The position numbers and the translations under genes were made by a program. A stretch of DNA of 13,687 nucleotides from Nitrososphaerales archaeon TH5893. GTDB taxonomy: Archaea > Thermoproteota > Nitrososphaeria > Nitrososphaerales > Nitrososphaeraceae. Below, one piece after another: positions 1 through 13,687 of the stretch (the stretch's first letter is position 1; each line of letters opens with the position of its first letter). The notes under the pieces are model-generated. The model saw only the letters and a program-made list of their open reading frames with translations, ran no database searches and was not told where the DNA came from. The stretch spans positions 1 through 13,687 of the forward strand of contig JAATVT010000035.1 in the NCBI GenBank assembly GCA_014523685.1, read 5' to 3'.

Positions 1-116
1 ATGAACCACCGGCTAGTGCAGATAAAGATGAACCACCGGCTAGTGCAGATAAAGATGAACCACCGGCTAGTGCAGATAAAGATGAACCACCGGCTAGTGC
101 AGATAAAGATGAACCA
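1..116 (+). repeat. Perfect 27-bp tandem repeat, four copies plus a partial fifth
   Basis: Units begin at 1, 28, 55 and 82 and are identical over 27 bp. A fifth copy starting at 109 runs for 8 bases (to 116) and then diverges. The period is a multiple of three, so changes in copy number keep the reading frame. Perfect identity between copies indicates recent expansion or ongoing homogenisation. The array may extend left beyond the window. Confidence 0.97.
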
Positions 117-122
117 GGTTAA
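3..122 (+). CDS. C-terminal end of a protein with DEPPASADK tandem repeats (partial)
   Basis: An open frame enters from the left edge and stops at TAA (120-122). The 39 visible residues are four copies of the 9-residue unit DEPPASADK, the first lacking its D, followed by DEPG and the stop. The tail is acidic, rich in Pro, Ala and Ser, and probably disordered; such tails often act as linkers or surface-exposed extensions. No domain is visible, so the function of the whole protein cannot be stated. The same DNA is also open in frame 1 (MNHRLVQIK units, stop at 127-129). I prefer frame 3 because its composition is typical of low-complexity protein tails and because frame 1 would need a repeat of an unusual mixed basic/hydrophobic unit. 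The gene body lies outside the window. Confidence 0.6.
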   Translation, partial: EPPASADKDEPPASADKDEPPASADKDEPPASADKDEPG

Positions 123-169
123 TTCCTAAATCTGAATACAAGACAACTCTGGCGACAGGAGTTAGATTC

Positions 170-178
170 TACTATTTT
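170..178 (+). promoter_or_regulatory. Probable TATA-like box of egsA
   Basis: A TACTATTTT stretch is centred about 25 nt before the ATG at 199, the spacing expected for an archaeal leaderless transcript. The match to a TATA box is weak. A short imperfect inverted repeat (AACTC at 145-149, GAGTT at 159-163) just upstream may belong to the end of the preceding gene. Confidence 0.4.
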
Positions 179-198
179 CGTTAAGCAAGTTACCTTCG

Positions 199-1275
199 AT
201 GAAACTAAGTTTGGATCATACTCCTGCTCACTTGATGGAACTACCAAGGAAGATACTGATAGGAGACAATGTGATCGAAAGTCTTGGCGAATTTATAAAA
301 GATTTAAACCAAAATGCCTCGAAGATTGCGATCGTCACCGGTCACATTGTTCAAGCAAAAGCTGGAAAACAATGTCGTGCTTCGATCGACGGATCGTCGT
401 TAAAGAATTCATGGCATATAGTTACAGATGCCTCGATGGATTCTGTAAATAGGTTACAAATAGGTCTCGAAAAATACTCTCCCGATTTTATAGTGGGTCT
501 AGGTGGAGGTCGTTCGGTAGATGTTGCCAAGATGACTGCTTTTCGATTAGCCAAACCTTTTGTTAGCGCACCTACTTCCGCATCTCATGATGGCATCGCA
601 AGCCCTTTTGTCTCTGTGAAAGGGCTGGATCGACCCCATTCAATTAAAGCAAATTCTCCAATAGGAGTCTTGGCCGATACTAGGTTGCTTTCCCAAGCTC
701 CTATGAGGTTATTGGCAAGTGGCTGCGGAGATCTTGTTGCTAAGATTACTGCTGTCAGAGACTGGGAACTTGCGAGAGAAGAAAAAAATGAATACTTTGG
801 AGCCTATGCAGCCAATTTGGCGAGCATGAGTGCGGAAATAATCATTAAACAATCTCACAAATTCCGGAGCAACAGTATTTTCGGGGTTCGAACAATAATT
901 GAAGCCCTGATTAGTGCCGGTGTCGCCGCATGTATCGCTGGAAGTAGCAGACCTTGTTCAGGTTCGGAACATCTTTTCAGTCACGCCCTAGAATATGTTG
1001 CCGGCAATAACTGCGGGTTGCACGGCGAACGTGTAGGATTAGGGACAATAATAATGGCTAAACTTCACGGTTTAGACTGGAGGCAGATTGTAAGAACCCT
1101 CAAGGAGATCGGAGCTCCAACAACGGGCCAAGAAATAAACATAGGGGAGCAAAATATGGTGAAAGCCCTGCTACTTGCACCGTCTCTGAGACCCGAACGT
1201 TACACTATATTAAATAAGGCGAACTTGAACGAACAGTCTGCTAAGCGTGTATTGAAGGATGTGGATGTGCTTTAG
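199..1275 (+). CDS. egsA: sn-glycerol-1-phosphate dehydrogenase
   Basis: Reduces dihydroxyacetone phosphate with NAD(P)H to sn-glycerol-1-phosphate, the step that sets archaeal lipid stereochemistry; a cytosolic, metal-dependent enzyme. The 358 residues match the family length. Visible signatures are the nucleotide-binding GGGRSVDVAK (102-111), PTSASHDGIASP (125-136), and the expected zinc ligands Asp178 (GCGDLVAK), His258 within SGSEHLFSHAL, and His275 within CGLHGERVG. The first ATG is used. An alternative start at Met13 (MELPRKILIG), where family homology begins, is possible, but the TATA-like box fits position 199. The gene stands alone, 76 nt after the repeat-tailed gene and convergent with the FKBP gene. 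A T8 tract follows it. A housekeeping gene with no sign of transfer. Confidence 0.95.
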   Translation: MKLSLDHTPAHLMELPRKILIGDNVIESLGEFIKDLNQNASKIAIVTGHIVQAKAGKQCRASIDGSSLKNSWHIVTDASMDSVNRLQIGLEKYSPDFIVGLGGGRSVDVAKMTAFRLAKPFVSAPTSASHDGIASPFVSVKGLDRPHSIKANSPIGVLADTRLLSQAPMRLLASGCGDLVAKITAVRDWELAREEKNEYFGAYAANLASMSAEIIIKQSHKFRSNSIFGVRTIIEALISAGVAACIAGSSRPCSGSEHLFSHALEYVAGNNCGLHGERVGLGTIIMAKLHGLDWRQIVRTLKEIGAPTTGQEINIGEQNMVKALLLAPSLRPERYTILNKANLNEQSAKRVLKDVDVL

Positions 1276-1290
1276 GATTTTGCATAATTC

Positions 1291-1310
1291 ACCTAATTTT
1301 TTTTGTTGTT
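1291..1310 (+). terminator. T-rich terminator of egsA
   Basis: A T8 run (1297-1304) followed by GTTGTT lies 16-30 nt after the egsA stop, typical of archaeal T-tract termination without a strong hairpin. A small hairpin (TGCTTT 1337-1342, AAAGCA 1346-1351) sits further downstream. The rest of the convergent gap to 1503 shows no convincing gene. Confidence 0.55.
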
Positions 1311-1503
1311 GATAAAATAGGCTTATGGTCGAATAGTGCTTTGTAAAAGCATCATGGGTAATCTCCTTTAGTACGTTGAACCTGCGAAGTCTTGCACGCA
1401 TTGTCAAGAATTGTTCTCCGTATTAAACCTAGATGGCATTCTTATGCGATAAACTTGCAACTAATAAAGAGGTGTGTAATCAGCTAGAAATTCTGCATAA
1501 AAT

Positions 1504-2277
1504 CTATGCCGAAGTTGGTTGGGATACTTCAGTACTCTTCTCTAGAGATTGTCGTTTTTGATCATCCTGATCATCCTGTTTCTTCGAGACTGAAGACTTC
1601 AATGCATAGGTCTCTACAAACTTCGCATTATCTACTCGGGGTACGAATTTGAAGATATCATTTGATATAGCACTCTTGATAATTTGCAACCCGTCGACAA
1701 GGAAGGTTTCTTCGGGGAGATCAATTTGTACTCCCGATCCTTCAATGTTAAACTTTATCTTTTGATCATCTATTGGCAATCGCCTTTTTATTATAGACAG
1801 CACCTTTTCGTTATCGTCATCGAGTTTTTTTGTTATCTCGAGATCATAAATTAGAGTGCGTCCTGCGAACCGATGGTTAAAATCGACCTGAACCCGTCCA
1901 GAGCCGATGAATCTCACAATCCCCACGCGTTCGTCAAGTTCAATAGTGTCTCCCACCCTAGCCTCGTCGGCCTTATCACCAAGTTTGCGAAGGGGAATCA
2001 TCCGTACTTTGTTTTGAACTCTTTCTCCAAAGCCTTTATCTGGAGGAATTTCAATCTTTAATTTATCACCCGCACTTGCATTTTTCAAAGCATCGTCAAG
2101 TCCACTTAATACCCATCCTTCGCCTACTGAGATCAGTCGTGGCTCGTATCTACGAGTCATATCATATAGATCTGATTTCTTCGCTTCTTCTTCTCTGGTC
2201 GTCTCGAAGGTAAGATCGGTCTCCTTGACCTTTGCTGTATAGTCTATTAGAATGAGAGACCCCTTTTCAAGCGTCAT
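1504..2277 (-). CDS. SlyD-like FKBP peptidyl-prolyl cis-trans isomerase, long archaeal type
   Basis: A protein-folding helper that catalyses cis/trans isomerisation before proline and probably acts as a chaperone; likely cytosolic, as no signal peptide is seen. Of 257 residues, about 5-85 and 130-150 form a split FKBP domain (VGEGWVLSGLDDAL at 51-64; VDFNHRFAGRTLIYDLEI at 131-148, the SlyD-type closing segment). Residues about 85-130 form the inserted flap chaperone domain. A further domain at about 155-225 is as in long archaeal FKBPs of the FKBP26 kind. The last 30 residues are a Lys/Gln/Asp/Ser-rich disordered tail that includes a DDQDDQ duplication. There is no His-rich metal tail as in bacterial SlyD. 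The ATG at 2277 has an AT-rich box 25 nt upstream. It lies 70 nt downstream of the aminotransferase gene on the same strand but has its own promoter. Confidence 0.9.
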   Translation of the reverse strand: MTLEKGSLILIDYTAKVKETDLTFETTREEEAKKSDLYDMTRRYEPRLISVGEGWVLSGLDDALKNASAGDKLKIEIPPDKGFGERVQNKVRMIPLRKLGDKADEARVGDTIELDERVGIVRFIGSGRVQVDFNHRFAGRTLIYDLEITKKLDDDNEKVLSIIKRRLPIDDQKIKFNIEGSGVQIDLPEETFLVDGLQIIKSAISNDIFKFVPRVDNAKFVETYALKSSVSKKQDDQDDQKRQSLEKSTEVSQPTSA

Positions 2278-2297
2278 AAATTTCGCTATTGGTATAC

Positions 2298-2306
2298 CAT
2301 ATATTA
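2298..2306 (-). promoter_or_regulatory. TATA box of the FKBP gene
   Basis: Read on the minus strand the sequence is TTAATATAT, centred about 25 nt before the ATG at 2277. This predicts a leaderless transcript separate from the upstream aminotransferase gene. Confidence 0.55.
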
Positions 2307-2347
2307 AGCTTAATAGAATAGACAGGAACCCAAAACATTATCAAATT

Positions 2348-3493
2348 CTAGGCAATACCGCTAATCTTCTCGAATGCATTGGAGGCTGCTTCTGAGTTAA
2401 CTTTTAGCCCGAGCATGTTCATTGCTGAAATGATAGAAGCTAATGTTCTTGTTACGTGATACTTATTTACCTCTCCCATTGAGCCTATTCTAAAAACCTT
2501 ACCTTTTAGTTCGCCGAACCCCCCTGCTATGAGGACCCTAAAATCCTTGGCTAGTAAAGTTCTGAATTTCTTGTCATCCATCCCATCGATATATTTAGCA
2601 GCAATTACGACGTTACTACGTGCTTCCTCTACTGCAAATGGTGGAAGACCAAGTGCGTTTAGGCCGCTGTAAAATGCTTCAGCACATGTTCTATGTCTTC
2701 CAATCCTTTTGTCCAAGCCCTCCTCCAAAACAATATCGAGAGCTTCATTAAAGGCGTAGAACAGAGAGAGCGCAGGTGTAAACGGGGTTTCGAAACTATC
2801 CTCATAATATTTGAAATATCGCTTGAGGTTCAGATAAAGGATCGAAGGGGGATTTGAAAGAATGTACTTTTTAGCCCTATCACTTATTGAAATAGGCGAT
2901 ATTCCAGGGGGAGCTGCTAAACCTTTTTGTGAAGCCGTCACACAAATATCAATATTCCACTTGTCGACTGGCAATTCGTCTCCTCCCAGGATCGAGACTG
3001 CGTCAGCCACGAAGAACGCTCCATGACTCGAACAGAGCTGTCCTATTTTATCCATATATCTTATAGTTGTCCCGGTAGACGTTTCATTGTAGACTGCATA
3101 AATAGCCTTGGTGTCTTTGTTTTGATCAAGGACTTCCTCGATTTTATCATATTGAGGATTCTCACCATACGGCGCAGTTACACGAATCGCCTTGCCTCCC
3201 CAGCTGTCAATTAAATCGGCAAGCCTAGATCCAAATTCTCCACATACAGGAACAATAGCCTTATCACCTTTCTTAATCAGATTAACAACCGAAGCTTCAA
3301 CTGCTCCTGTGCCTGAGGTGGTTAAAAGAATAACATCATTTTGAGTCTGGAATGTCATCTTGATTTTTTCGACTAGTGATCTGTATAGCTGGCGAAAATC
3401 ATCACCTCTGTGATTAATAATAGGGGCTAGCATTGCGTTCATGACCCTATTTGGTACATTAGTTGGACCCGGCAACATGACTAAATATTCCAT
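2348..3493 (-). CDS. Class V PLP aminotransferase (alanine/serine-glyoxylate type)
   Basis: A fold-type I pyridoxal-phosphate enzyme of the alanine-glyoxylate / serine-pyruvate aminotransferase family, which converts glyoxylate to glycine or exchanges amino groups between serine, alanine and 2-oxoacids. In 381 residues (the usual length) one sees MLPGPTNVP (6-14), SGTGAVEAS (60-68) for PLP phosphate binding, Asp164 in VADAVS, the Schiff-base Lys190 in TASQKGLAAPPG (187-197 region), and Arg336 in FRIGSMGE, expected to bind the substrate carboxylate. Exact amino donor and acceptor cannot be read from the sequence; phosphonate-pyruvate or cysteine desulfurase roles are less likely given the N- and C-terminal motifs. 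It is divergent from the M24 peptidase across a 106-bp gap holding both promoters. Confidence 0.9.
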   Translation of the reverse strand: MEYLVMLPGPTNVPNRVMNAMLAPIINHRGDDFRQLYRSLVEKIKMTFQTQNDVILLTTSGTGAVEASVVNLIKKGDKAIVPVCGEFGSRLADLIDSWGGKAIRVTAPYGENPQYDKIEEVLDQNKDTKAIYAVYNETSTGTTIRYMDKIGQLCSSHGAFFVADAVSILGGDELPVDKWNIDICVTASQKGLAAPPGISPISISDRAKKYILSNPPSILYLNLKRYFKYYEDSFETPFTPALSLFYAFNEALDIVLEEGLDKRIGRHRTCAEAFYSGLNALGLPPFAVEEARSNVVIAAKYIDGMDDKKFRTLLAKDFRVLIAGGFGELKGKVFRIGSMGEVNKYHVTRTLASIISAMNMLGLKVNSEAASNAFEKISGIA

Positions 3494-3524
3494 TCTATTT
3501 GTCAGATAATCGAGATAGGGTGGG

Positions 3525-3534
3525 ATATTTATAA
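3525..3534 (-). promoter_or_regulatory. TATA box of the aminotransferase gene
   Basis: The minus-strand sequence TTATAAATAT is centred about 36 nt before the ATG at 3493, predicting a roughly 10-nt leader. The opposite gene at 3600 has two candidates on the plus strand, GATAAAAC (3558-3565) and TTTATA (3579-3584). The second is too close for the annotated start unless transcription begins inside the ORF. Confidence 0.5.
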
Positions 3535-3599
3535 TTAGGGCATGAACTTACGGTAGAGATAAAACTGGGATCTGATCGTTTATACCTATATTAGTACTT

Positions 3600-4682
3600 A
3601 TGCACAAAATTCACCGTCAGAATGTCTTAAATTGCGCAAAAAAAAGATTCGGATGTGATACAATAGCTGCGTTTAGTCCAGAGAATATATTTTATCTGAC
3701 TGGTTTTTGGGGAGAAGGCATCACAGTAATTAATGAGGAGGGGAAGACCATTCTTATAACACCGAGGTTAGAAACAGAAAGGGCAATCAATACCTCCAAC
3801 GATTGTGACGTCGTTACTGCAGAGCGGGGTGGTAGGTTGATATCCCATTTCGTGTCGGTTATAAAAAACAAGAAAACTTGTATCGATTGCCTCGACCACT
3901 CCATTTTTGAAACATTAAAACAGAGACTTAATAATCCTCAGGGATTGCTGACAAATAACCAGCCCTTCTTTGATGCTAGAATGATTAAGGATGAAAAAGA
4001 GATATCCACTATAAGTAAGGCTGCCGCTATTTTGGACAAGCTATATGAAATCTGCACAGAGAGAATCAAAGAGGGTTTGTCCGAACGCCGATTGCAAGCC
4101 ATCCTCATTTATCAGGCCATGAAATTGGGAGCGAGTCCTCCTTCATACAGGTGGACATTGGATCCCTTGATTATTGCTAGTGGGCCGAATGGAGCCCAAC
4201 CCCATGCACAGATCTCTGATCGTAAATTCAAATCTGGAGATATGATCATCGTGGACCTGACACTCAGACACAAAGGATACATTGCTGATGCGACACGAAC
4301 ATTCGGTTTAGGAACAATATCCAATGATATGAAAAAAGTATATGAAGTTGTACGTGAATCTCAGGAGTCTGGTGTCAAGGCAGTATCAGATGGTGTGACA
4401 TGCGGAGACATTGATCATACGTGCAGACAAGTTATCCAACAATCAGGCTTTAATGAATCCTTTGTACATTCAACAGGACATGGGATTGGTTTGGAAGTTC
4501 ACGAGCCACCTTGGATACGGGTAAAGAATAGACAGAAGATTAGGAATAATATGTCAATAACAATTGAACCTGGGATTTACCTGCAAGATAGATTTGGAGT
4601 AAGAATTGAAGATAGTGTGGTGGTAAGGGGTAATGAGAAAAATCTTTGCAGATTCACAAAAGAATTGATCGTAAAGGGATGA
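3600..4682 (+). CDS. M24 family metallopeptidase, Xaa-Pro aminopeptidase type
   Basis: A dinuclear-metal peptidase that removes N-terminal residues before proline (prolidase / aminopeptidase P fold). The 360 residues split into a creatinase-like N-terminal domain (about 1-125, with SPENIFYLTGF at 26-36) and the pita-bread catalytic domain. All five metal ligands are visible: Asp219 (IVDLTL), Asp230 (IADATRTF), His294 (STGHGIGLEVHEPP), Glu323 (TIEPGIY) and Glu337 (RIEDSVV). His202 (QPHAQ) and His301 match the supporting histidines of the family. Start: the ATG at 3600 gives a normal N-terminus. It is a single gene, with the convergent pantothenate operon beginning its 3' end 80 nt further on. 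Dipeptidase versus aminopeptidase specificity cannot be decided from sequence alone. Confidence 0.92.
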   Translation: MHKIHRQNVLNCAKKRFGCDTIAAFSPENIFYLTGFWGEGITVINEEGKTILITPRLETERAINTSNDCDVVTAERGGRLISHFVSVIKNKKTCIDCLDHSIFETLKQRLNNPQGLLTNNQPFFDARMIKDEKEISTISKAAAILDKLYEICTERIKEGLSERRLQAILIYQAMKLGASPPSYRWTLDPLIIASGPNGAQPHAQISDRKFKSGDMIIVDLTLRHKGYIADATRTFGLGTISNDMKKVYEVVRESQESGVKAVSDGVTCGDIDHTCRQVIQQSGFNESFVHSTGHGIGLEVHEPPWIRVKNRQKIRNNMSITIEPGIYLQDRFGVRIEDSVVVRGNEKNLCRFTKELIVKG

Positions 4683-4706
4683 TATACTACAACACTACAC
4701 GTTCTC

Positions 4707-4720
4707 CGAAAAAAATTAGA
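4707..4720 (-). terminator. T-rich terminator of the pantothenate/CoA operon
   Basis: On the minus strand a T7 run (4715-4709) lies about 50 nt downstream of the coaBC stop, in the convergent gap with the M24 peptidase gene. This is typical for archaeal termination. No strong hairpin precedes it. Confidence 0.45.
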
Positions 4721-4762
4721 TTATGTGCATTGAAACTATCTTAAATAATCTATCGCAACTCT

Positions 4763-6184
4763 TTATGATTGCAATCCAGCGGTTAGATGTTCTAATAACT
4801 TTCTCGCAATCAATTTTTTTTTCTGTAGCGGAAGAAAAACGATGTTTTTTTCCTTGTCTACTACTATAGCTTCATTGGTTTCAGACCCCATTTCAGATCC
4901 TTTTCTTCCAACATCAATTGCAACAACCAAATCGCATCTGCCTTCAGACATCTTCTTCAACGCATGGTTTGCCATCTCTTCATTGGATTTGTTGTAGTCA
5001 GCCTTGAATGCTACCAAAAAAATCTCGGCATTTTTGCTAGCAGTTCTCATTTCATCTACAATCTTCTTAGTAGAAGAAAGAGTTAAAACAAATGGGCCTC
5101 TTTTTCTTGTTTCAATTTTTTTCGGAAGTATTCTGCTAGGTTTGAAATCAGCAACTGCTGCGGACATAAAAGCGGCATCATAATATTTTGTCCCTAACTC
5201 TGAGATAACCGAATCGCACATTTCATCACTAGTATTAACTTTGATAATTCTCATTCTGGGTGCTTCTTGTAGTTCGTATGTCCCATGACCATATACTAAG
5301 GTAACATTTGCTCCCTTTGTATATGCTTCTTGCGCAATAGCATTTCCCATTCTACCAGAACTCAAATTGGATATTACCCTAATAGGGTCTATAAACTCAA
5401 CTGTACTTCCAGCTGTTATCAGAATATTTCGTCCTAAAAGGCTTTCATTTTGACCTTCATCTGTCTCTACAACTTGATCTTTTTTCTCATGTGTTATTTC
5501 CCTGCCGAGGCGAGGCAATGATGTTCTATCACCTCTAAACATATATGAAATCCCACGTAGGACTTCTTCTGGCTCCACCAGCTTGGCCTTATTTTCAGAA
5601 ATTGATGGGTCAATGAAATGTACACCCTGCTCTTTGAGACGTTGAATATTAGTGGTAACGAAGGCATTGAAATACATAGATTTGTGCATAGCTGGAGCGA
5701 TAAGTATAGGTATCTTCGATCCCAAGGCTACACTCAAAATAGATGTAACCGGTGTATCGTCTATTCCACTTGCCATCTTTCCTATAGTATTTGCCGTACA
5801 AGGATAGACAAGTATTAGGTCAGACCTATTGTAATCAGCAAGAAAAATGTGTTCCAGATTCGCACTGAGTTTGGTGATAACATTATTGCCTGATGCCCAT
5901 TTCATAATTTCACTTGTCAGCAGTAGATTAGACCCTGATGACATGACGGGGAAAATTTCAGCACCATGTCTAATTAGCAACCGCGTTAGGTCTATCGCCT
6001 TATACGCAGCTACGCTTCCAGTTATACATATCACTATTTTCTTTCCTACTAGGTCCACACCGAGCGAACAAAAAATATCCTTAACTAGAGGATTTTGTGA
6101 CTTGTTCATAAAATTAATTTGGTTATCTTCAATATCGTTCATATCGTTACTTTTTTCTCCCCTAGAATTTTTCGCAATTACCAT
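4763..6184 (-). CDS. coaBC: Bifunctional phosphopantothenoylcysteine decarboxylase / phosphopantothenate-cysteine ligase
   Basis: Joins cysteine to 4'-phosphopantothenate (CoaB, nucleotide-dependent) and decarboxylates the product with FMN (CoaC) to give 4'-phosphopantetheine. The CoaC flavoprotein half spans about 46-212: GKKIVICITGSVAAYK, catalytic His112 in LEHIFLA, CTANTIGKMASGIDD (129-143), APAMHKSM (163-170). A charged linker (about 215-250) leads to the CoaB half with ITAGSTVEFIDP (256-267), ISNLSSGRMG (271-280), AAVADFKP (342-349) and FKADYNKS (393-400). The bacterial clamp motif ACGDxGxG is absent; SISENKAKLVEPEE stands there, which agrees with what I recall of other archaeal enzymes. 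The ATG at 6184 gives a roughly 45-residue hydrophilic extension; Met15 or Met26 are alternatives. It starts 6 nt after the panB stop as the last gene of the operon. Confidence 0.95.
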   Translation of the reverse strand: MVIAKNSRGEKSNDMNDIEDNQINFMNKSQNPLVKDIFCSLGVDLVGKKIVICITGSVAAYKAIDLTRLLIRHGAEIFPVMSSGSNLLLTSEIMKWASGNNVITKLSANLEHIFLADYNRSDLILVYPCTANTIGKMASGIDDTPVTSILSVALGSKIPILIAPAMHKSMYFNAFVTTNIQRLKEQGVHFIDPSISENKAKLVEPEEVLRGISYMFRGDRTSLPRLGREITHEKKDQVVETDEGQNESLLGRNILITAGSTVEFIDPIRVISNLSSGRMGNAIAQEAYTKGANVTLVYGHGTYELQEAPRMRIIKVNTSDEMCDSVISELGTKYYDAAFMSAAVADFKPSRILPKKIETRKRGPFVLTLSSTKKIVDEMRTASKNAEIFLVAFKADYNKSNEEMANHALKKMSEGRCDLVVAIDVGRKGSEMGSETNEAIVVDKEKNIVFLPLQKKKLIARKLLEHLTAGLQS

Positions 6185-6190
6185 TGTGCA

Positions 6191-7126
6191 TCAATCATTT
6201 CGTAATTTTCTCTGTTGTTTCAATTTTCTCAACACTTTCCTTAACTCGTTTTTATCCATATGAAAGCTATTCGTGTCTTGTGGAAATTTTTTTTCCTTAA
6301 CATCTTTTCTATAAAGAGATATTGCGTCGAATATTGTTTCATATAAGTGAGCATAGTGTTTGACAAACCTTAGTTGAGCACCTTGATATAACCCAAGCAG
6401 ATCGTGTGAGACTAGGACTTGACCGTCACAATTCAAACCCGAGCCTATTCCTATTGTAGGAATTGAGAGATTTTCCGAAATCAGTGTAGCAACTTCATCA
6501 GTTACCATTTCTAAAACCACTGAAAAAGCTCCCGCTTCCTCCAGTTCTCTTGCATCTTCTAATAGTTTCAAGGCGGATTTTTCTGTTTTTCCGTGCAGCC
6601 GATTATTATTCCACAATGAAGACGTCTGAGGGGTAAAACCAATGTGGCCCATAACGGGGATACCGGCCGCTATTATGGATCTTATTAATGGTACTACTTC
6701 GGTTCCACCTTCGATTTTTACAGCATTACAACCTGCTTTGATAAAAAGTACAGCATTCTGAACTGCGTCAGCAACTGAGCATTGATAAGAACCAAACGGC
6801 AAATCTCCTATAGTTAATGCTCTTTTGACCGCCCTAGTGACGGCGCCGCAGAATACTAGCATTTCTTGCATTCCTATTGGGGCAGTATTATGATATCCAA
6901 GCATAACCATCGCTGCGCTGTCTCCGATAAGGATCCCATCGACTCCTGCCCTATCACAGATTAAAGCGTTAAAGTAGTCATAAGCAGTTACAATTGCTAC
7001 TTTTTCCTTTTTTTTCTTCATTTCAAGGAGATGGTTCACAGTAAGTTTCTCACCACTATTACCAGTGAAAAATTTGTTCTGCGTAGTGCTCCTACCGTTA
7101 CTCTTATTTGAAACTTCAGAAGACAT
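6191..7126 (-). CDS. panB: 3-methyl-2-oxobutanoate hydroxymethyltransferase (ketopantoate synthase)
   Basis: Transfers a hydroxymethyl group from a methylene-folate/pterin carrier to 2-oxoisovalerate, making ketopantoate for CoA. The TIM-barrel core shows TAYDYFNA (47-54), metal ligands Asp69 (IGDS), Asp108 (GDLPFGSYQ) and Glu139 (AVKIEGG), GHIGFTPQ (160-167), catalytic Glu206 (VVLEMV), and CDGQVLVSHDLLG (233-245). Spacings between these residues match the E. coli enzyme closely. At 311 residues it is longer than the usual ~265, owing to a ~25-residue Ser/Asn-rich N-terminus and a Lys/Arg-rich tail. An AGGAG sequence on the minus strand (7143-7139) lies 12 nt before the ATG and may help internal translation. 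It follows the phosphopantothenate synthetase gene by 21 nt. Confidence 0.96.
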   Translation of the reverse strand: MSSEVSNKSNGRSTTQNKFFTGNSGEKLTVNHLLEMKKKKEKVAIVTAYDYFNALICDRAGVDGILIGDSAAMVMLGYHNTAPIGMQEMLVFCGAVTRAVKRALTIGDLPFGSYQCSVADAVQNAVLFIKAGCNAVKIEGGTEVVPLIRSIIAAGIPVMGHIGFTPQTSSLWNNNRLHGKTEKSALKLLEDARELEEAGAFSVVLEMVTDEVATLISENLSIPTIGIGSGLNCDGQVLVSHDLLGLYQGAQLRFVKHYAHLYETIFDAISLYRKDVKEKKFPQDTNSFHMDKNELRKVLRKLKQQRKLRND

Positions 7127-7147
7127 GGAGGCTACTTTCTCCTACGT

Positions 7148-7966
7148 TTACGATCCCTTGATGTTTCCTCGCATAACTGATAATGATTCAATGAGATTCT
7201 TATGATTGTCATACTCCTTAACTATTCTTTTCATTACCATTTCTCTTTGTTTTCGTTCAAGGTCTTTCAGTTTTCTTACAACCATGATCATTTTTGGTAT
7301 TGCTCGGATCGCATTATCTACAATTGTTATATTTGCTGATCTTGCGGTTCTAGATCCAGGATTAAGATCGATTGCAACCACTATCTTGCCCATTTTAACA
7401 AGTGCTTCTGTCCGATCACCATCTTCTAATGGGACGAGCACAGTATCAGCTTTCATGATTCCTTTCGGATCGACCCGTCTTCGCTCACTTTGCAATTCCG
7501 GGATGACTGCCGACGCGCTTGATGTAACTCCAAGAATTTCTTTTGCGCCAAAGCGTTCCAGCTCTTTTTTTATGAGGCTTTCCCTTTTTATAGTACGATA
7601 AAACAAATTAACTTCAATTTTAGCTCCTATTAAATGACTTAATTCTACAATATTCTTTGCACAAAGCGCCACTAGGTTACCGTTAACAGAGATTACAGGG
7701 AATTTAGATAATAATAGGGCCGATGTGGCCGCCTCTATAGCACACTGTGCCATACTGCTTGTCTTTTCGCCTAATAGATAGTCAAAGGCTTCACCCCTTC
7801 CATGGGCTATCAATCCTTCGGATGCAACCAGTCCTTTCCTGTATCCGTCCACTAACATCTCCCGGATTAAGAGTGACTGTGCCCTAGGATGAGTTGGGGG
7901 TATATGAAAATGTGGATTATAATTGCTGTAGTCACCATCATAAATGTGATCACCATTATTTGTCAA
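7148..7966 (-). CDS. 4-phosphopantoate--beta-alanine ligase (phosphopantothenate synthetase, archaeal)
   Basis: Joins 4-phosphopantoate to beta-alanine with ATP, giving 4'-phosphopantothenate; this is the archaeal replacement for the bacterial PanC/CoaA order of steps. The 272 residues show the family's conserved stretches: IPPTHPRAQSLLIREMLVDG (22-41), GLIAHGRGEAFDYLLGEKT (51-69), NGNLVALCAKN (95-105), and VPLEDGDRTEALVKMGK followed by AIDLNPGSRTA (about 177-209). The start is a TTG at 7966, overlapping the end of the pantoate kinase gene by 11 nt. No in-frame ATG occurs before Met37, which lies inside the conserved region, so a non-ATG start is required. This overlap suggests translational coupling. 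Second gene of the four-gene operon. Confidence 0.95.
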   Translation of the reverse strand: MTNNGDHIYDGDYSNYNPHFHIPPTHPRAQSLLIREMLVDGYRKGLVASEGLIAHGRGEAFDYLLGEKTSSMAQCAIEAATSALLLSKFPVISVNGNLVALCAKNIVELSHLIGAKIEVNLFYRTIKRESLIKKELERFGAKEILGVTSSASAVIPELQSERRRVDPKGIMKADTVLVPLEDGDRTEALVKMGKIVVAIDLNPGSRTARSANITIVDNAIRAIPKMIMVVRKLKDLERKQREMVMKRIVKEYDNHKNLIESLSVMRGNIKGS

Positions 7967-8948
7967 GGATCCTTGCCCCGTGGTGATCTATACCGCATGT
8001 TAACAACGTGCCACCGTTTCCCTTGAGGCAATTTATTACACTGTCCACATTATTGGATTTTACTATAGAAAAAATTGTGTCGCCAAACAAAGCGACACTC
8101 GAACCAAATCCTTGTGATTTGAGTTTCTTAATAAGGGACCCGCTCTTGCCTCGAATCAGGCCAAGACGGGTTGCAAAGTCAAACGATATATCGAGAAAGT
8201 CATTTATGTTTCTTGATATGCTAAATCTTTCTAACATTTCTTCACCGTAGCCGTTTAATAGCCCAACATCATCGGTAAGAAATTTCTTTGTTGACAATGG
8301 AGAAAGACATAAGATGATAACCTTAAGATCTTGTACGCTAGGATGGTACGGAAACTTACTCACCACGCCTACACCTGGACCTCCAATCTCCGACCGCAAT
8401 TCAAATCCTCCCACGTACTGGGCAAGTACGCTACCTAGACCCGTCTTGCATTCAATCTCTGAACTATGGGCAATCTGAGCTGCCCGTTCCATGTCGAGGC
8501 CCACCTTTAAGGCACGATTGAGGGCATAGGACAGGCTCAATGCAGCTGCGCCACTTGATGATAGACCATATCCAATGGGTATGGATGTTTCATGCTCGAT
8601 TTTGATGTGATAAGACCTGCCATGTAAGAGCTCAACATATTGTTCTACAACGGATTTTGTTACTTCGATATTCGAATTCTTATTCAATCCATTAATTAAA
8701 ACATCATAACTCGTCCTAGAATAGTTATTGCCTTTATCAAAAACTCTCACTGTGGTAGTGATACCCAAATCTATCGCAAGTCCAGCACCGAGAGATCCTT
8801 TACGAAGATGAGCGCTACCCCCTTCGTTTTTATTGAGCTTTTCATCCCCCACGAAATCAGATACCTTGGCAAGAAATCCTGTAATATGGCCTGGACAGAA
8901 AGCCTTGGCTGTAGAAACAGCAGAAGCTGTGACTACGGTCATAACCAT
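7956..8948 (-). CDS. Pantoate kinase (GHMP kinase family, archaeal)
   Basis: Phosphorylates pantoate with ATP to 4-phosphopantoate, the first archaea-specific step to CoA. The GHMP fold is shown by AFCPGHITGF (16-25), the glycine/serine ATP-binding loop IPIGYGLSSSGAAALS (about 123-138), and the C-terminal GSSVALFGDTIFS segment. Length (330) is slightly above the usual ~290-300, partly from a charged insert near residues 33-50. The ATG at 8948 has an AT-rich box 27 nt upstream; a second ATG two codons later is equivalent. It heads the operon pantoate kinase, phosphopantothenate synthetase, panB, coaBC, and is divergent from the AbrB-PhoU gene with a 69-bp shared promoter region. Confidence 0.94.
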   Translation of the reverse strand: MVMTVVTASAVSTAKAFCPGHITGFLAKVSDFVGDEKLNKNEGGSAHLRKGSLGAGLAIDLGITTTVRVFDKGNNYSRTSYDVLINGLNKNSNIEVTKSVVEQYVELLHGRSYHIKIEHETSIPIGYGLSSSGAAALSLSYALNRALKVGLDMERAAQIAHSSEIECKTGLGSVLAQYVGGFELRSEIGGPGVGVVSKFPYHPSVQDLKVIILCLSPLSTKKFLTDDVGLLNGYGEEMLERFSISRNINDFLDISFDFATRLGLIRGKSGSLIKKLKSQGFGSSVALFGDTIFSIVKSNNVDSVINCLKGNGGTLLTCGIDHHGARILDK

Positions 8949-8970
8949 GAAGGATTTATAGATATGATGA

Positions 8971-8980
8971 AATATAAAAA
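8971..8980 (-). promoter_or_regulatory. TATA box of the pantothenate/CoA operon
   Basis: The minus-strand sequence TTTTTATATT is centred about 27 nt before the pantoate kinase ATG, fitting a leaderless operon transcript. It lies in the 69-bp gap facing the divergent regulator gene. Confidence 0.6.
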
Positions 8981-8994
8981 TAATGTTTAATTAG

Positions 8995-9000
8995 TATAAA
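8995..9000 (+). promoter_or_regulatory. TATA box of the AbrB-PhoU gene
   Basis: TATAAA lies 18-23 nt before the ATG at 9018, giving a leaderless or nearly leaderless transcript. It is about 15-20 bp from the operon's oppositely directed TATA box, so the two promoters could compete or be co-regulated. Confidence 0.5.
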
Positions 9001-9017
9001 CATGTTTAAATTTCCAC

Positions 9018-10019
9018 ATGCTTAGATTTGGGAGAAGGGTACAGCAGATAGGAAGTAGTTTTCTTGTATCGTTGCCTAGTGGGTGGGTAAAAAAGAACAA
9101 CTTGAAAAAAGGAAACATGGTGCTAATCGAGATAAATAATGACAATACGTTATCCTTGTTTTCATCAGATTTAACAGGTGAAGAACTTAAGGAAGTAACA
9201 ATTGCCTATTCACATATTTCTGTAGACAGCATAGTAAACCAAATTTATGGGACTTATCTTCTCGGATACAATATAATCCGTATTAAAGGAACTGAAGAAA
9301 TAGCCTTCGACCACAGAGATCGCATAAAACACACAATGCGAACTCTTGCAGGATTGGAAATAATCGAGGAAGATAGCACAAACATAATATGCCAGTTTTT
9401 ACTCGATGCAGGAACGTTGGACATAGAAAAAATACTCAGACGAATGAACACAATTATTGCTGGAATGTATAAAGATACGATTGATCTTCTTGGTAGAAGC
9501 TATGAAAATAATATAAGAAAATCTGTAGTGAGTAGGGATGCCGAAGTTGACCGTCAGTATTTTCTTCTAGTAAGGCTAATTCGCAGTGCAATGTTAGATC
9601 CGCAGCTCGCCACCAAACTCAATCTTAGCAATATAGATATACTAGATTATAGAATCGCAGCCAATCATTTAGAAAATGCGGGAGACTACATTAAGGATTT
9701 TGCTAAAGCTTTACCACGTCTTGAAAGTAAGGAGCTATTAAATGAAATAATAGAAGCAAGCATACTTACTGTCAGAATGCAAGAAAAATCTGTGACAGCT
9801 TTCGTAAACAATAACAGAATCGAGTCTTCTGAGATAATAAAATTGTACAATAAATTCAACCAGCTGATGGATTCAATAAAAGAGCTGTCTGCATTCCGAA
9901 ACAGACCCGAAGAACCCATGCTTAGTATCTCGCTTTTAAATTCTGTCTATTCAATGGATAAAATTGCGAGATGTTGGGTTGATGTTGCCGACTTAGTTAA
10001 ACCATCATACCTGAAATAA
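9018..10019 (+). CDS. AbrB-PhoU fusion protein, phosphate-uptake type regulator
   Basis: A 333-residue cytosolic protein. Residues about 1-48 form an AbrB/SpoVT swapped-hairpin DNA-binding domain (RRVQQIGSSFLVSLPSGWVK). Residues about 70-115 link to a PhoU helical domain with characteristic metal-cluster motifs RDAEVDRQ (173-180) and RIAANHLENAGDYI (212-225). A more degenerate second PhoU half covers about 240-330 (SMDKIARCWVDVADL). Such fusions are common in archaea, especially thaumarchaea, and are usually annotated as phosphate uptake regulators. PhoU proteins modulate Pst transport, but no transporter gene is in this window. Position next to the CoA operon could mean regulation of it, which is only inference. 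The AbrB hairpin is intact, so DNA binding is plausible. Confidence 0.88.
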   Translation: MLRFGRRVQQIGSSFLVSLPSGWVKKNNLKKGNMVLIEINNDNTLSLFSSDLTGEELKEVTIAYSHISVDSIVNQIYGTYLLGYNIIRIKGTEEIAFDHRDRIKHTMRTLAGLEIIEEDSTNIICQFLLDAGTLDIEKILRRMNTIIAGMYKDTIDLLGRSYENNIRKSVVSRDAEVDRQYFLLVRLIRSAMLDPQLATKLNLSNIDILDYRIAANHLENAGDYIKDFAKALPRLESKELLNEIIEASILTVRMQEKSVTAFVNNNRIESSEIIKLYNKFNQLMDSIKELSAFRNRPEEPMLSISLLNSVYSMDKIARCWVDVADLVKPSYLK

Positions 10020-10303
10020 AAGTCACGTCTAATTTGCTCCCATGTACATTGCTATTATTTAGTAAATGGTTTACTGCTATTAGAAATGTGCCATCAAGTA
10101 GCTATCACTCTTACTCGCAATTCTCAGTTAGTATGCCGGAAGCCAATCAAATTTTAACGACAATTATTTCTGAATGTTGCTTAACTAACTAAATTAGAAT
10201 AACCTAGATATTACTAGGCAGAGTTTTGTTTGTATTGCCTCGCCGTTCTATGTTATTCAATATCATATGCGATTAGCCGCTAGAATTTTTAGTGAGTGGT
10301 TCG
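10020..10303. other. Convergent intergenic spacer with one terminator-like inverted repeat
   Basis: This 284-nt gap lies between the 3' ends of the AbrB-PhoU and PDE-like genes. It contains a 5-bp inverted repeat, CCTAG (10203-10207) and CTAGG (10214-10218), followed on the plus strand by GTTTTGTTT, a possible terminator for the plus-strand gene. I see only ORFs under 30 codons and no RNA gene. Confidence 0.5.
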
Positions 10304-12745
10304 TCATCCAACTTCGTGTGAATCACGAAGTACAAGAACATGTATACTATGTTTCTTAAGAGACGAGCCACTGTCCCAATCCTTTGGAAAGTAAACCTTT
10401 CCGGAATTGCTGAGCTTAAATGAACTGCTTGCTATGTACGATAAAAGTTCTCTGAAAAACTGACTATCTTCGTTGATATCTGTAAGAATCTGCACAGTAC
10501 CTCTATCGCCAACCAATTTCACTTTCAATATTGGAAGAAGTTTACCAAAAGATGGTGCCGCAATCGGAGAGAAATCCTTCTCGGGTAAAACAAAGAAAAA
10601 ATTATCGATCGATGAATTTTGTATGCGAGGTACGAGTTTCATGGTGTCTCCCCAGAATGAAGAGGCGTTCTGAGGATCCAGAGCAGCGAACTTTGATTTA
10701 GCTCGTAATACTTCATCCTGATCTGTACCTATGCCAATAAAATACTCTGACCAGTGGTTGGAAGCAATTCTGAAAAGCATATCACAATCTTGCATTCCCA
10801 AATCTAAATTGACTTTTAAATAAAGCCTCCTGGCATTGCTGATTGTTCTATTCAATTGTGTTGAAGGGTTTCCTTCATGGAAGAATTGATAAACAAGGTT
10901 CCATCTTTGTCTTAAAATTTCAGGAAAGTTTCGTGTGCGTATTAGTTCTTTAAATAGATCGTCATCGGCAAAATCTGAAAAAAATGCATCCGTCCTTGAG
11001 ACTGCCTCAAAGCGAGGGAGATACAATTCATCATATAGTTTGCTAACTCTATCCCAAGCTCTTATGGGGTCTGAACCCATATAGGTTACAGATAGGTCTG
11101 CCAACCAAAGAATCTCCCCAAGTAATCGTATTTTATTTTGGTTGAATCCTTTTCTCCCAAGTTCAGAGAGAATCTGTTCAAACTTCCCCTGTGCTCTTTG
11201 CTGTTTAGCAAAAGGAAAGTCCGTTCTCCATATTAAGGCCTCAACAATCAAGCTCTCAGTAGGCTTCCAATCAACCTTCACGTATTCTGGATGGGTTGAT
11301 GAAAATTCAATTGGTAGAAGCAAACTAGATTTGTATTCTCTAAAGTAGTTTTCAAATTCCATGGAACTCATTGTAAAATAAGCATCCAGAATTCTTGTTC
11401 TATTTAATTCATCGATAGTTCTATAAACTCTAGGTCCCTTTGGCTGGGCTGAGATAGTGTCATTATCAATATCAGTCCTGAGCGATTCGATATGAGCGTC
11501 ACTGGGATCATAGTCATGTAAAATACCAGCCAATAGCAGAAGTTCATAATCCTTCCAAGAATAAGTATATCCATGAAATTCTTTTGGTAGCATTTGTAAA
11601 CTAAGAAAGGTAACCTCTAAACTATGATGAAAATTATGGTATTTACTTGACCCTTCACCTATCCCCTGTCTACTATATTCATTCTTAAGAAACAAGACAA
11701 GGATACGAAATTTGTCTATTCTTTCCTGCGGAATTTCTCTATTCTTAGCAACATCGATTATAGATTCAATCAATTGATCGTTCGGGATGTTAGCTAGATT
11801 CTCATTAGTATATTCAATAGTTCGTTTTCTTGCTCCAGGAAAATGACTTATTGCTTTTCTGTATATTATTCTGAGGGGCAGACTCTTATTTAGATATGCG
11901 ACGAATGCAGATATTTTCCAGGGGTACTTGATACGAGATTTTTCTCTCTCAACCACTTCTTCTGATGCTCTGGCTAGCTTTGTATTGAGTATTGTTAGAA
12001 ATGTACCCAAATCTGACTCATCAATATTCCAAGATTCTTTTTGCTTTTCAGTTAGGGAAATTTCAGTGTTCATAACTAACCACTGAGGTATTTTCACTCT
12101 GTAACGATATTTTTTCTGAGGAGCCTGGAGTTCCCTCGAGGTGACAGCAACGTTCCGGGGATTTTCTAAGAATGGCAGATCGCTATCTTTAACAACTTGT
12201 AGGATAATTTCCTTGTTAGGAACCTGGAGTCCAAGTAGGATATGCCAATATTTTCCCTTATCAAGCCAATCAGGCACCTGAGTTTCTCGATCCCAGAAAT
12301 CGATAGGACCCATGGGAACATATCCTTTTTCATAGTCCCTCGTTTCAGGATTGTATGATCGATATTCATAATCGCCAATCATCGGATTAAGTTTCTTCGC
12401 CAAATCTCTTGCATCATTTATCAAGGCGGCAGAGATAGTAAATTCCCGGTAAGCCATTGCTCCCCAAATCGTACCCAATGCACTGAGCAAAGAAAACAAA
12501 GCAGAGACAGGGTCTATTTCGTTATACAAGAAGTATAAAGGGGCAAGAGGTATGCCGAACCAGCCTGTGGCCAAAATACCAGTGAAGGCTAATGTTATGA
12601 AGAGCCAGCGAGTAAGATCATTATAAAAGAGGCTGAAGGATCTGGTCTGCTGAGAATCATTAGCAGAGGCGTGGGATTGATGGTTAGCAGGTTTAGCTGG
12701 TTGAAAATCAGAATTATTTTTTCTTGCTGTATCCGATCTAACCAA
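10304..12745 (-). CDS. Membrane-anchored HD-superfamily protein resembling class I cyclic-nucleotide phosphodiesterases
   Basis: An 813-residue protein. After a ~40-residue hydrophilic N-terminus come two hydrophobic segments (about 46-74 and 78-98), then a long soluble part. Residues about 345-625 carry the PDE metal motifs: YHNFHHSLEV (369-378, matching YHNxxHAxDV), HDYD (410-413) and LADLS (548-552). These give candidate ligands His374, His410, Asp411, Asp550 and acid His370. The His374-His410 spacing of 36 equals that recalled for human PDE4. The second His of HDxDH is Pro414 here. Residues 110-340 and 640-813 match nothing I recognise. The start is a TTG at 12745: an in-frame stop lies upstream at 12794-12796 and no ATG occurs before residue 121, downstream of the membrane segments. 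Likely role is hydrolysis of a cyclic nucleotide or other phosphoester at the membrane; substrate unknown. Confidence 0.8.
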   Translation of the reverse strand: MVRSDTARKNNSDFQPAKPANHQSHASANDSQQTRSFSLFYNDLTRWLFITLAFTGILATGWFGIPLAPLYFLYNEIDPVSALFSLLSALGTIWGAMAYREFTISAALINDARDLAKKLNPMIGDYEYRSYNPETRDYEKGYVPMGPIDFWDRETQVPDWLDKGKYWHILLGLQVPNKEIILQVVKDSDLPFLENPRNVAVTSRELQAPQKKYRYRVKIPQWLVMNTEISLTEKQKESWNIDESDLGTFLTILNTKLARASEEVVEREKSRIKYPWKISAFVAYLNKSLPLRIIYRKAISHFPGARKRTIEYTNENLANIPNDQLIESIIDVAKNREIPQERIDKFRILVLFLKNEYSRQGIGEGSSKYHNFHHSLEVTFLSLQMLPKEFHGYTYSWKDYELLLLAGILHDYDPSDAHIESLRTDIDNDTISAQPKGPRVYRTIDELNRTRILDAYFTMSSMEFENYFREYKSSLLLPIEFSSTHPEYVKVDWKPTESLIVEALIWRTDFPFAKQQRAQGKFEQILSELGRKGFNQNKIRLLGEILWLADLSVTYMGSDPIRAWDRVSKLYDELYLPRFEAVSRTDAFFSDFADDDLFKELIRTRNFPEILRQRWNLVYQFFHEGNPSTQLNRTISNARRLYLKVNLDLGMQDCDMLFRIASNHWSEYFIGIGTDQDEVLRAKSKFAALDPQNASSFWGDTMKLVPRIQNSSIDNFFFVLPEKDFSPIAAPSFGKLLPILKVKLVGDRGTVQILTDINEDSQFFRELLSYIASSSFKLSNSGKVYFPKDWDSGSSLKKHSIHVLVLRDSHEVG

Positions 12746-12779
12746 GTCTCTGTTCCGTCCGCTCCAAGTCTTAAAGTTA

Positions 12780-12796
12780 GGATATATTATATATTA
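12780..12796. promoter_or_regulatory. AT-rich divergent promoter region
   Basis: An almost pure A/T stretch with overlapping TATA-like matches on both strands. On the minus strand it would start transcription about 15-20 nt before the TTG of the PDE-like gene. On the plus strand it lies about 20-25 nt before the ATG of the short ORF at 12806. Confidence 0.5.
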
Positions 12797-12805
12797 TTAC
12801 GCTGG

Positions 12806-12931
12806 ATGACCATAAGCCGATATTATATTCCAAAATGGCCTAACAATGTCCCAGACATGAGCGATATTATCGAATTTCAATATCCAGAAGACATGGATAG
12901 GGATGTGCTTACCAAGTTGAAAGACTTTTAA
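12806..12931 (+). CDS. Possible 41-residue protein
   Basis: An ATG at 12806, about 20 nt after an AT-rich TATA-like stretch, opens a 41-codon frame ending in TAA. The product is soluble and mixed in composition (begins MTISRYYIPKWPNNVPDMSD, ends LTKLKDF) with no membrane segment or known motif. The same frame is open further upstream to 12671, but that part is antisense to the PDE-like gene and is not protein-like in character. The ORF fills the gap between the divergent promoter and the tRNA gene. It may be a genuine small protein or chance; conservation would decide. Confidence 0.35.
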   Translation: MTISRYYIPKWPNNVPDMSDIIEFQYPEDMDRDVLTKLKDF

Positions 12932-12957
12932 ATGGCAATTAGTATCTGGTTGAGAAA

Positions 12958-12969
12958 AACATATTTAGC
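12958..12969 (+). promoter_or_regulatory. TATA box of the tRNA-Val gene
   Basis: An AACATATTTAGC stretch is centred about 35 nt before the first base of the mature tRNA. This predicts a short 5' leader to be removed by RNase P. Confidence 0.45.
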
Positions 12970-12997
12970 ATGCAACGAGTCTAGTTCATTCCCACGT

Positions 12998-13072
12998 GGG
13001 CCGGTGGTCTAGCCTGGTTAAGATACCGCCTTGACATGGCGGGGGTCGCGTGTTCGAATCACGTCCGGCCCA
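12998..13072 (+). tRNA. tRNA-Val (anticodon GAC)
   Basis: A complete 75-nt cloverleaf. The 7-bp acceptor stem GGGCCGG/CCGGCCC is perfect. The D arm is GTCT/AGAT. The anticodon stem CCGCC/GGCGG holds loop TTGACAT with anticodon GAC (13033-13035), reading GUC and GUU valine codons. The T stem GCGTG/CACGT (one G-U pair) closes loop TTCGAAT. The discriminator is A and CCA is not encoded, as is common in archaea. No intron. Confidence 0.97.
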
Positions 13073-13083
13073 TTATCCTTAAT

Positions 13084-13100
13084 CAAAAAACCCGTTTTTG
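13084..13100 (+). terminator. Probable terminator of the tRNA gene
   Basis: A short A/T inverted repeat, CAAAAA pairing with TTTTTG, begins 12 nt after the tRNA and includes a T5 run (13095-13099). It fits archaeal T-tract termination. Confidence 0.45.
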
Positions 13101-13376
13101 GTCTATTTAGTTTATCATTGTAATTATTGTAATACAGTATGGGTAACTGTAAAATCAGCCAGTTGTTCAATAGATTCGTAGTTCTTCTATATCAAAGTAG
13201 TAATTTACAAATCCATTAGTGATTTGATTTTTTGTATAATACGAAAATCCACTGATTTTTCAGATTTCTTAGAATAATGATACCATCTCAAAAGCCGTTC
13301 TAATTCAGTCTAGGCCAGAGAAGAAGATAGTAAAGTGCCCTAGTTAAAACAGGAATGATTTCTTAAGTCATTAATT

Positions 13377-13388
13377 AAAAAAAATAAA
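13377..13388 (-). terminator. T8 terminator of the NMT-repeat peptide gene
   Basis: On the minus strand a T8 run (13384-13377) follows the stop codon of the small secreted-peptide gene by about 16 nt, a good archaeal termination tract. Confidence 0.55.
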
Positions 13389-13400
13389 GGGTGTTGAGGT

Positions 13401-13556
13401 CTAAGGCGTAGGCGGAGCCGTCATATTGGTCATGTTCGTCATATTTTGGGCGAAAGCTTCCATTGGTTCTACGCCGCTAAACACCCCAATGCTTGCCATG
13501 GACGTTATGGCAAACACAACTATTGCGATTGCCACGAATACTAGTTTGGGATTCAT
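13401..13556 (-). CDS. 51-residue secreted or membrane-anchored peptide with three N-glycosylation sequons
   Basis: The minus-strand frame opens at ATG (13556) and stops at TAG (13401-13403). The product begins MNPKLVFVAIAIVVFAIT: one Lys at position 4 and then a hydrophobic stretch (about 5-26), either a signal peptide or a single membrane helix. A short segment SGVEPMEAFAQ (28-37) contains AFA-Q, a plausible signal-peptidase site. It is followed by NMTNMTNMT (38-46) and APPTP. Each NMT is an N-X-T sequon, so the mature end could be densely glycosylated outside the cell. The TATA box at 13579-13586 is 26 nt from the ATG, a model leaderless promoter, and a T8 terminator follows. I recall similar small Nitrososphaera-group proteins with this N-terminus but know of no function. 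Cleavage would leave a peptide of about 15 residues. Confidence 0.8.
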   Translation of the reverse strand: MNPKLVFVAIAIVVFAITSMASIGVFSGVEPMEAFAQNMTNMTNMTAPPTP

Positions 13557-13578
13557 TGTCCTTGATCGCGCCGCGTAC

Positions 13579-13586
13579 TATATAAG
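13579..13586 (-). promoter_or_regulatory. TATA box of the NMT-repeat peptide gene
   Basis: The minus-strand sequence CTTATATAGT spans this position and is centred 26-27 nt before the ATG at 13556. It is the cleanest TATA-to-start spacing in the window and predicts a leaderless mRNA. Confidence 0.65.
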
Positions 13587-13687
13587 AATTTCATAGTAGA
13601 ATCATATAGATCACAGTTGTAACTTCAGTTATTGGGTCGATAGTTCTCATTCTCACGCAATAGTAAGCTCCCAATTTATCAGATAAT

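Follow-up and report, generated by a model that had tools for sequence, protein, structure and literature searches.

Class I cyclic-nucleotide phosphodiesterases (PDEs; Pfam PF00233, including PDE5, PDE9A, PDE10A and the rhodopsin-PDE of Salpingoeca rosetta) share a common catalytic-domain fold, the HN-x-x-H and HD motifs, spaced by 36 residues in PDE9A, and a late Asp in an ADLS-like motif. In solved PDEs the direct metal ligands are His, His, Asp and Asp, while the second His of HDxxH lies in the second shell around the second metal; class I PDEs also have an invariant purine-binding Gln. Passages of one account give their signature as H-D-[LIVMFY]-x-H-x-[AG]-x(2)-[NQ]-x-[LIVMFY], report that transmembrane segments can precede the catalytic domain, and mention a few bacterial and archaeal examples without naming them (PMC10865986). 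Surprisingly little is known about archaeal second messengers, according to a passage of another (PMC6741144). Here we describe an open reading frame (ORF) of 813 amino acids (aa) from Nitrososphaerales archaeon TH5893, located on contig JAATVT010000035.1, of which the whole stretch analysed (positions 1 to 13,687; 13,687 nucleotides) is hereafter called the window. Its central domain very likely adopts the class I PDE fold, judging from the predicted model. The whole explanation, that of a membrane-anchored signalling protein from a divergent archaeal branch of this fold that would hydrolyse a phosphodiester, is one in which our confidence and our doubt are about equal. The protein and its parts are as follows.

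10304..12745, minus strand: 813-aa ORF with a TTG start and a stop codon at 10304-10306; membrane hairpin (probable), N-terminal region, HD domain of predicted class I PDE fold and TrmB-type putative pseudo-methyltransferase
12389..12631, minus strand: probable membrane hairpin of two long helices, residues 39-119, from Kyte-Doolittle (KD) segments and model helices
12026..12388, minus strand: residues 120-240, a region in which the model places several strands and alignment A1 has conserved columns
10847..11836, minus strand: HD domain of predicted class I PDE fold, residues 304-633, slightly exceeding the range 10871-11713 first given
11612..11641, minus strand: YHNFHHSLEV, residues 369-378, with the candidate general acid His370 and candidate metal ligand His374
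11504..11518, minus strand: HDYDP, residues 410-414, with the putative metal ligands His410 and Asp411, and Pro414 in place of the class I second His
11213..11230, minus strand: WRTDFP, residues 506-511, with T508, D509 and P511 in 48/48 orthologues
11090..11104, minus strand: LADLS, residues 548-552, with the candidate metal ligand Asp550, found in 48/48
10307..10870, minus strand: TrmB/METTL1-type methyltransferase fold with a degraded S-adenosylmethionine (SAM) site, residues 626-813

The initial annotation had placed a class I PDE-like domain at 10871..11713, which corresponds exactly to residues 345-625 of this ORF, and the three motifs that it named (YHNFHHSLEV, HDYD and LADLS) lie where it put them. 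Most of the domain can be matched, in its predicted fold, to class I PDEs, and no unrelated fold emerged. Class I PDEs fill the 50 best fold matches listed, among which neither SAMHD1-like proteins nor other HD families occur; structural alignments with class I PDEs show 11-16% identity. A family profile of the domain (alignment A6) retrieved PDE9A from the PDB sequences at an E-value of 2.2e-4, and a PDB search with the single sequence gave one chance-like match (E 2.6). Likeness to the PDEase_I profile, a comparison proposed at the outset, holds for the family, in which 34/34 orthologues match at E<=1 (best 4.5e-5); the window protein alone stays below the cut-off, as discussed below.

H370, H373 and H374, which align to the HN-x-x-H of PDE9A, occur in 48/48 orthologues, residue 371 being N in 41 and S in 7, so that the HN-x-x-H feature of class I PDEs is present. 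The 36 residues counted in the initial annotation between His374 and His410 are found identically in 48/48 family members; PDE9A shares this spacing, since the profile aligns to PDE9A chains without a gap over that stretch. H410, D411 and P414 are likewise present in 48/48 orthologues, and their H, D and P counterparts in 14/14 members of a paralogous family (HD-GNAT, see below), in which the H-to-HD spacing ranges from 34 to 43 residues. The replacement of the second His by Pro, noticed from the window sequence, is thus invariant in both groups. We take D550, present in 48/48 by sequence, to be equivalent to the late metal Asp of class I PDEs; the aligned paralogue column holds E in 9/14 and D in 5/14. 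WRTDFP resembles the class I 'TD' motif. As judged from these alignments, all four direct PDE ligands have invariant counterparts in the window family. The class I signature is matched by 0/48 orthologues and 0/14 paralogues because Pro occupies the second His position of HDxxH. An invariant Gln was not found at residues 556-640, where the best columns reach 39 and 38 of 48, the equivalence to the PDE Gln not being fixed by structure. By the tested features the domain is therefore no standard member of class I, although it may still act as these PDEs do. It further differs from described class I PDEs by its low identity, its archaeal origin and its TrmB-type tail.

In the mechanism that we propose, His374, His410, Asp411 and Asp550 would most likely hold the catalytic metal, a second metal, more loosely bound, would be reached through the bridging Asp411, and the general acid would be His370. 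The invariant His-to-Pro change would remove the second-shell residue of the second metal and leave all direct protein ligands in place, if the ligand roles of solved PDEs apply. Hydrolysis of a phosphodiester would most likely occur on the cytoplasmic side. We lean toward an active metal phosphohydrolase. As its substrate we would first guess a cyclic mononucleotide, supplied by the class III cyclases that these genomes encode, although we stop somewhat short of favouring it as the main one.

The C-terminal residues 626-813 show the TrmB methyltransferase fold. The window protein remains below the TrmB cut-offs (17.3 vs 112.65 bits for TIGR00091; 14.9 vs 24 bits for PF02390), and no intact SAM-binding GxGxG loop was found: Gly is absent from the six commonest residues at position 652 (R 18, S 7, F 7, Q/K/N 3 each; n=48). 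The acidic residue expected after strand 2 is also missing, position 673 being D in 1/48; position 675 is D in 42/48. Compared with the TrmB/METTL1 tRNA m7G methyltransferase (PF02390), the central Gly of the SAM loop and the acidic position that follows strand 2 are thus mostly lost in the window family, and the domain is fused to an HD domain. Its SAM site is probably gone, and it would act as a binding or regulatory module; that the tail is non-catalytic is a conclusion we hold with considerable confidence. Separately, a free-standing TrmB-like methyltransferase (L045-L049, L051; C17:6216-6794 in the own genome of TH5893) is mostly confined to the same archaeal family (31/37 vs 0/24 genomes of other families at E<1e-40).

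The membrane anchoring proposed initially is supported in the window protein, where KD segments >1.6 begin at residues 47 and 80 and the model predicts helices at 38-63 and 78-118 (model numbering being one below protein numbering), and less uniformly among its relatives: two such segments occur in 22/48, one in 22/48 and none in 4/48. Residues 39-119 would thus probably form a membrane hairpin, and residues 120-240, between it and the HD domain, could be a sensor.

All 37/37 genomes of the archaeal family of TH5893 (Nitrososphaeraceae), its own included, contain a match with an E-value of at most 1.2e-108. Such a match is found in 0/24 genomes from the order's other families, six of which match over the HD stretch only (best 4.8e-7). 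The 56 related loci are labelled Nitrososphaeraceae, Nitrososphaera, Nitrosocosmicus, Nitrosopolaris or more broadly, three titles reading Nitrosopumilus/Nitrosopumilales. Among 300 genomes of the phylum, a joint HD profile matched 52, of which 49 strongly, all from the same order, and three weakly (9.5e-5 to 8.8e-4) outside it. Alignment A1 contains the window and 33 full-length or nearly full-length places (partial places of G007, G022, G023, G034 and G036 excluded), A2 14/28 HD-only places, A3 6/7 TrmB-only places, A4 47/56 loci (L076, L086, L089, L090, L102, L104, L107, L108 and L109 being excluded as partial, masked or split), and A5 17/34 A1 rows with 13/14 A2 rows. The orthologue at L102:5962-8393 is split over two overlapping frames, likely an assembly error or a broken copy.

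The sister protein, HD-GNAT (~440-580 aa; L035-L044, L050, L052-L054), is found in the same order and carries the same HD domain with HD[YF]DP, a shorter stretch from the HD to the RT motif, and a GNAT-like acetyltransferase tail instead of the TrmB-like one. Pfam searches of its 14 members detected Acetyltransf_1 in 6 (best 3.8e-6), PDEase_I in 11 and HD in 6. At E<1e-100 it is found in 22/37 family genomes and 6/24 of other families; it was not found in the own genome of TH5893, an incomplete assembly (1.88 Mb, 79% complete). No description of the window family appeared in the literature found, in a search based on titles, abstract openings and some passages.

Of the family genomes, 36/37 contain class III cyclase (PF00211) matches, 3 to 20 in each, as do 10/24 other genomes; the sole family genome without one, G001, has a completeness of 59%. 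Four such matches, all above cut-off, are present in the own genome of TH5893 (C123, C30, C45, C222; L119-L122). In the 24 genomes of other families, HD-GNAT and cyclase occur together in 6, HD-GNAT alone in 0, cyclase alone in 4 and neither in 14. HD-GNAT is thus seen only where cyclases occur, an association among related genomes rather than proof of a link. Near the gene, four cyclase ORF queries, those passing the pattern from eight cyclase loci (L115, L119, L120, L121), gave four ORF matches in 3/56 loci (L058 and L067 once each, L091 twice; E 3e-17 to 8.5e-7). The query matched was L121 in every case, and this ORF has a receiver-like stretch as well, so that the matches count neither for nor cleanly against a cyclase next to the gene. 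The cyclic nucleoside monophosphate-binding domain (PF00027) was rejected as a partner, its distribution being patchy (28/61 genomes at E<=1e-3, 26 above cut-off, 1 match in the own genome). The abundance of class III cyclases in this archaeal family contrasts with a published remark, in a passage on predicted archaeal adenylate cyclases, that very few are class III (PMC8646023). Thaumarchaeal class 3 cyclases and CpdA are already in print, as a passage of PMC9289680 indicates. The initial annotation is supported in part: its class I PDE call is upheld by profile, conservation and whole-domain fold, and the cyclic-nucleotide or other phosphodiester hydrolase that it proposed stays an inference. 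The C-terminal TrmB-type domain, the sister family HD-GNAT and the wealth of cyclases in these genomes were not part of it.

Several observations call for caution. The window protein by itself falls below the PF00233 cut-off (E 0.053; 13.7 vs 24.8 bits), which is passed in 2/61 genomes. This profile is unspecific: matches also exceed the cut-off in 6/300 genomes of the phylum, where the top three proteins, those inspected (L135-L137), look like SAMHD1-type dNTPases. A PF00233 match was consequently rejected as proof of a class I PDE, and archaeal PF00233 counts may be inflated for the same reason. The sub-threshold Pfam score and the modest Foldseek E-values could even reflect a chance likeness of motifs or a generic helical bundle, a disfavoured and highly improbable reading. 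SAMHD1-like archaeal dNTPases of the HD superfamily share the H...HD metal motifs, and SAMHD1 itself appears in the joint profile search at E about 0.1. Together with the missing invariant Gln and the tRNA binding of TrmB relatives, this is consistent with an HD hydrolase that has only the fold of class I PDEs and acts on another substrate (as a nucleotidase or dNTPase, or on an RNA 2',3'-cyclic phosphate or cyclic oligonucleotide), its TrmB-type tail binding RNA or tRNA ends. SAMHD1 nevertheless ranks below class I PDEs in that search, the best class I PDE having an E-value about 560 times lower than the best SAMHD1, and class I PDEs alone occupy the best fold matches listed; we consider such a hydrolase unlikely.

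Only slightly less unlikely is a pseudo-phosphodiesterase, in which the His-to-Pro change abolished turnover and the domain binds a nucleotide or metal as a sensor, with the signal relayed to the TrmB-like tail as well as the membrane. The invariance of the Pro in orthologues and paralogues alike would fit, and the adjoining methyltransferase domain, itself degraded, indicates that this protein tolerates dead enzyme folds. Against it, neither the candidate direct metal ligands nor the candidate general acid varies among the 48 orthologues, and a mere binding fold need not retain them.

The genes around the ORF look archaeal, and comprise a Fe-ADH-type dehydrogenase, an FKBP, a class V aminotransferase, an M24 peptidase, a Flavoprotein/DFP (CoaBC-like) protein, PanB, PPS_PS, a GHMP kinase and a PhoU protein; a tRNA-Val is listed after the ORF. 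The coenzyme A genes (GHMP kinase, PPS_PS, PanB, Flavoprotein/DFP) are packed together on the minus strand at window positions 4763-8948. A conserved gene neighbourhood was rejected, since no neighbour recurs in a majority of loci: when the gene and an antisense frame that lies within it are set aside, the largest neighbour groups are present in 19, 17 and 15 of 57 loci.

In 36 genomes of these archaea, between 3 and 20 class III cyclase matches each stand alongside a conserved protein of predicted class I PDE fold. Tentatively, ammonia-oxidising archaea might run a full second-messenger system, with an enlarged set of class III cyclases and a class I-type PDE branch of their own, one member being membrane-bound with a methyltransferase turned sensor, the other joined to an acetyltransferase-like domain possibly coupling signal decay to protein acetylation. 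The family, from archaea known as soil ammonia oxidisers, offers a concrete candidate enzyme for assay, and such a non-eukaryotic branch would be useful in studying the origin of the class I PDE fold.
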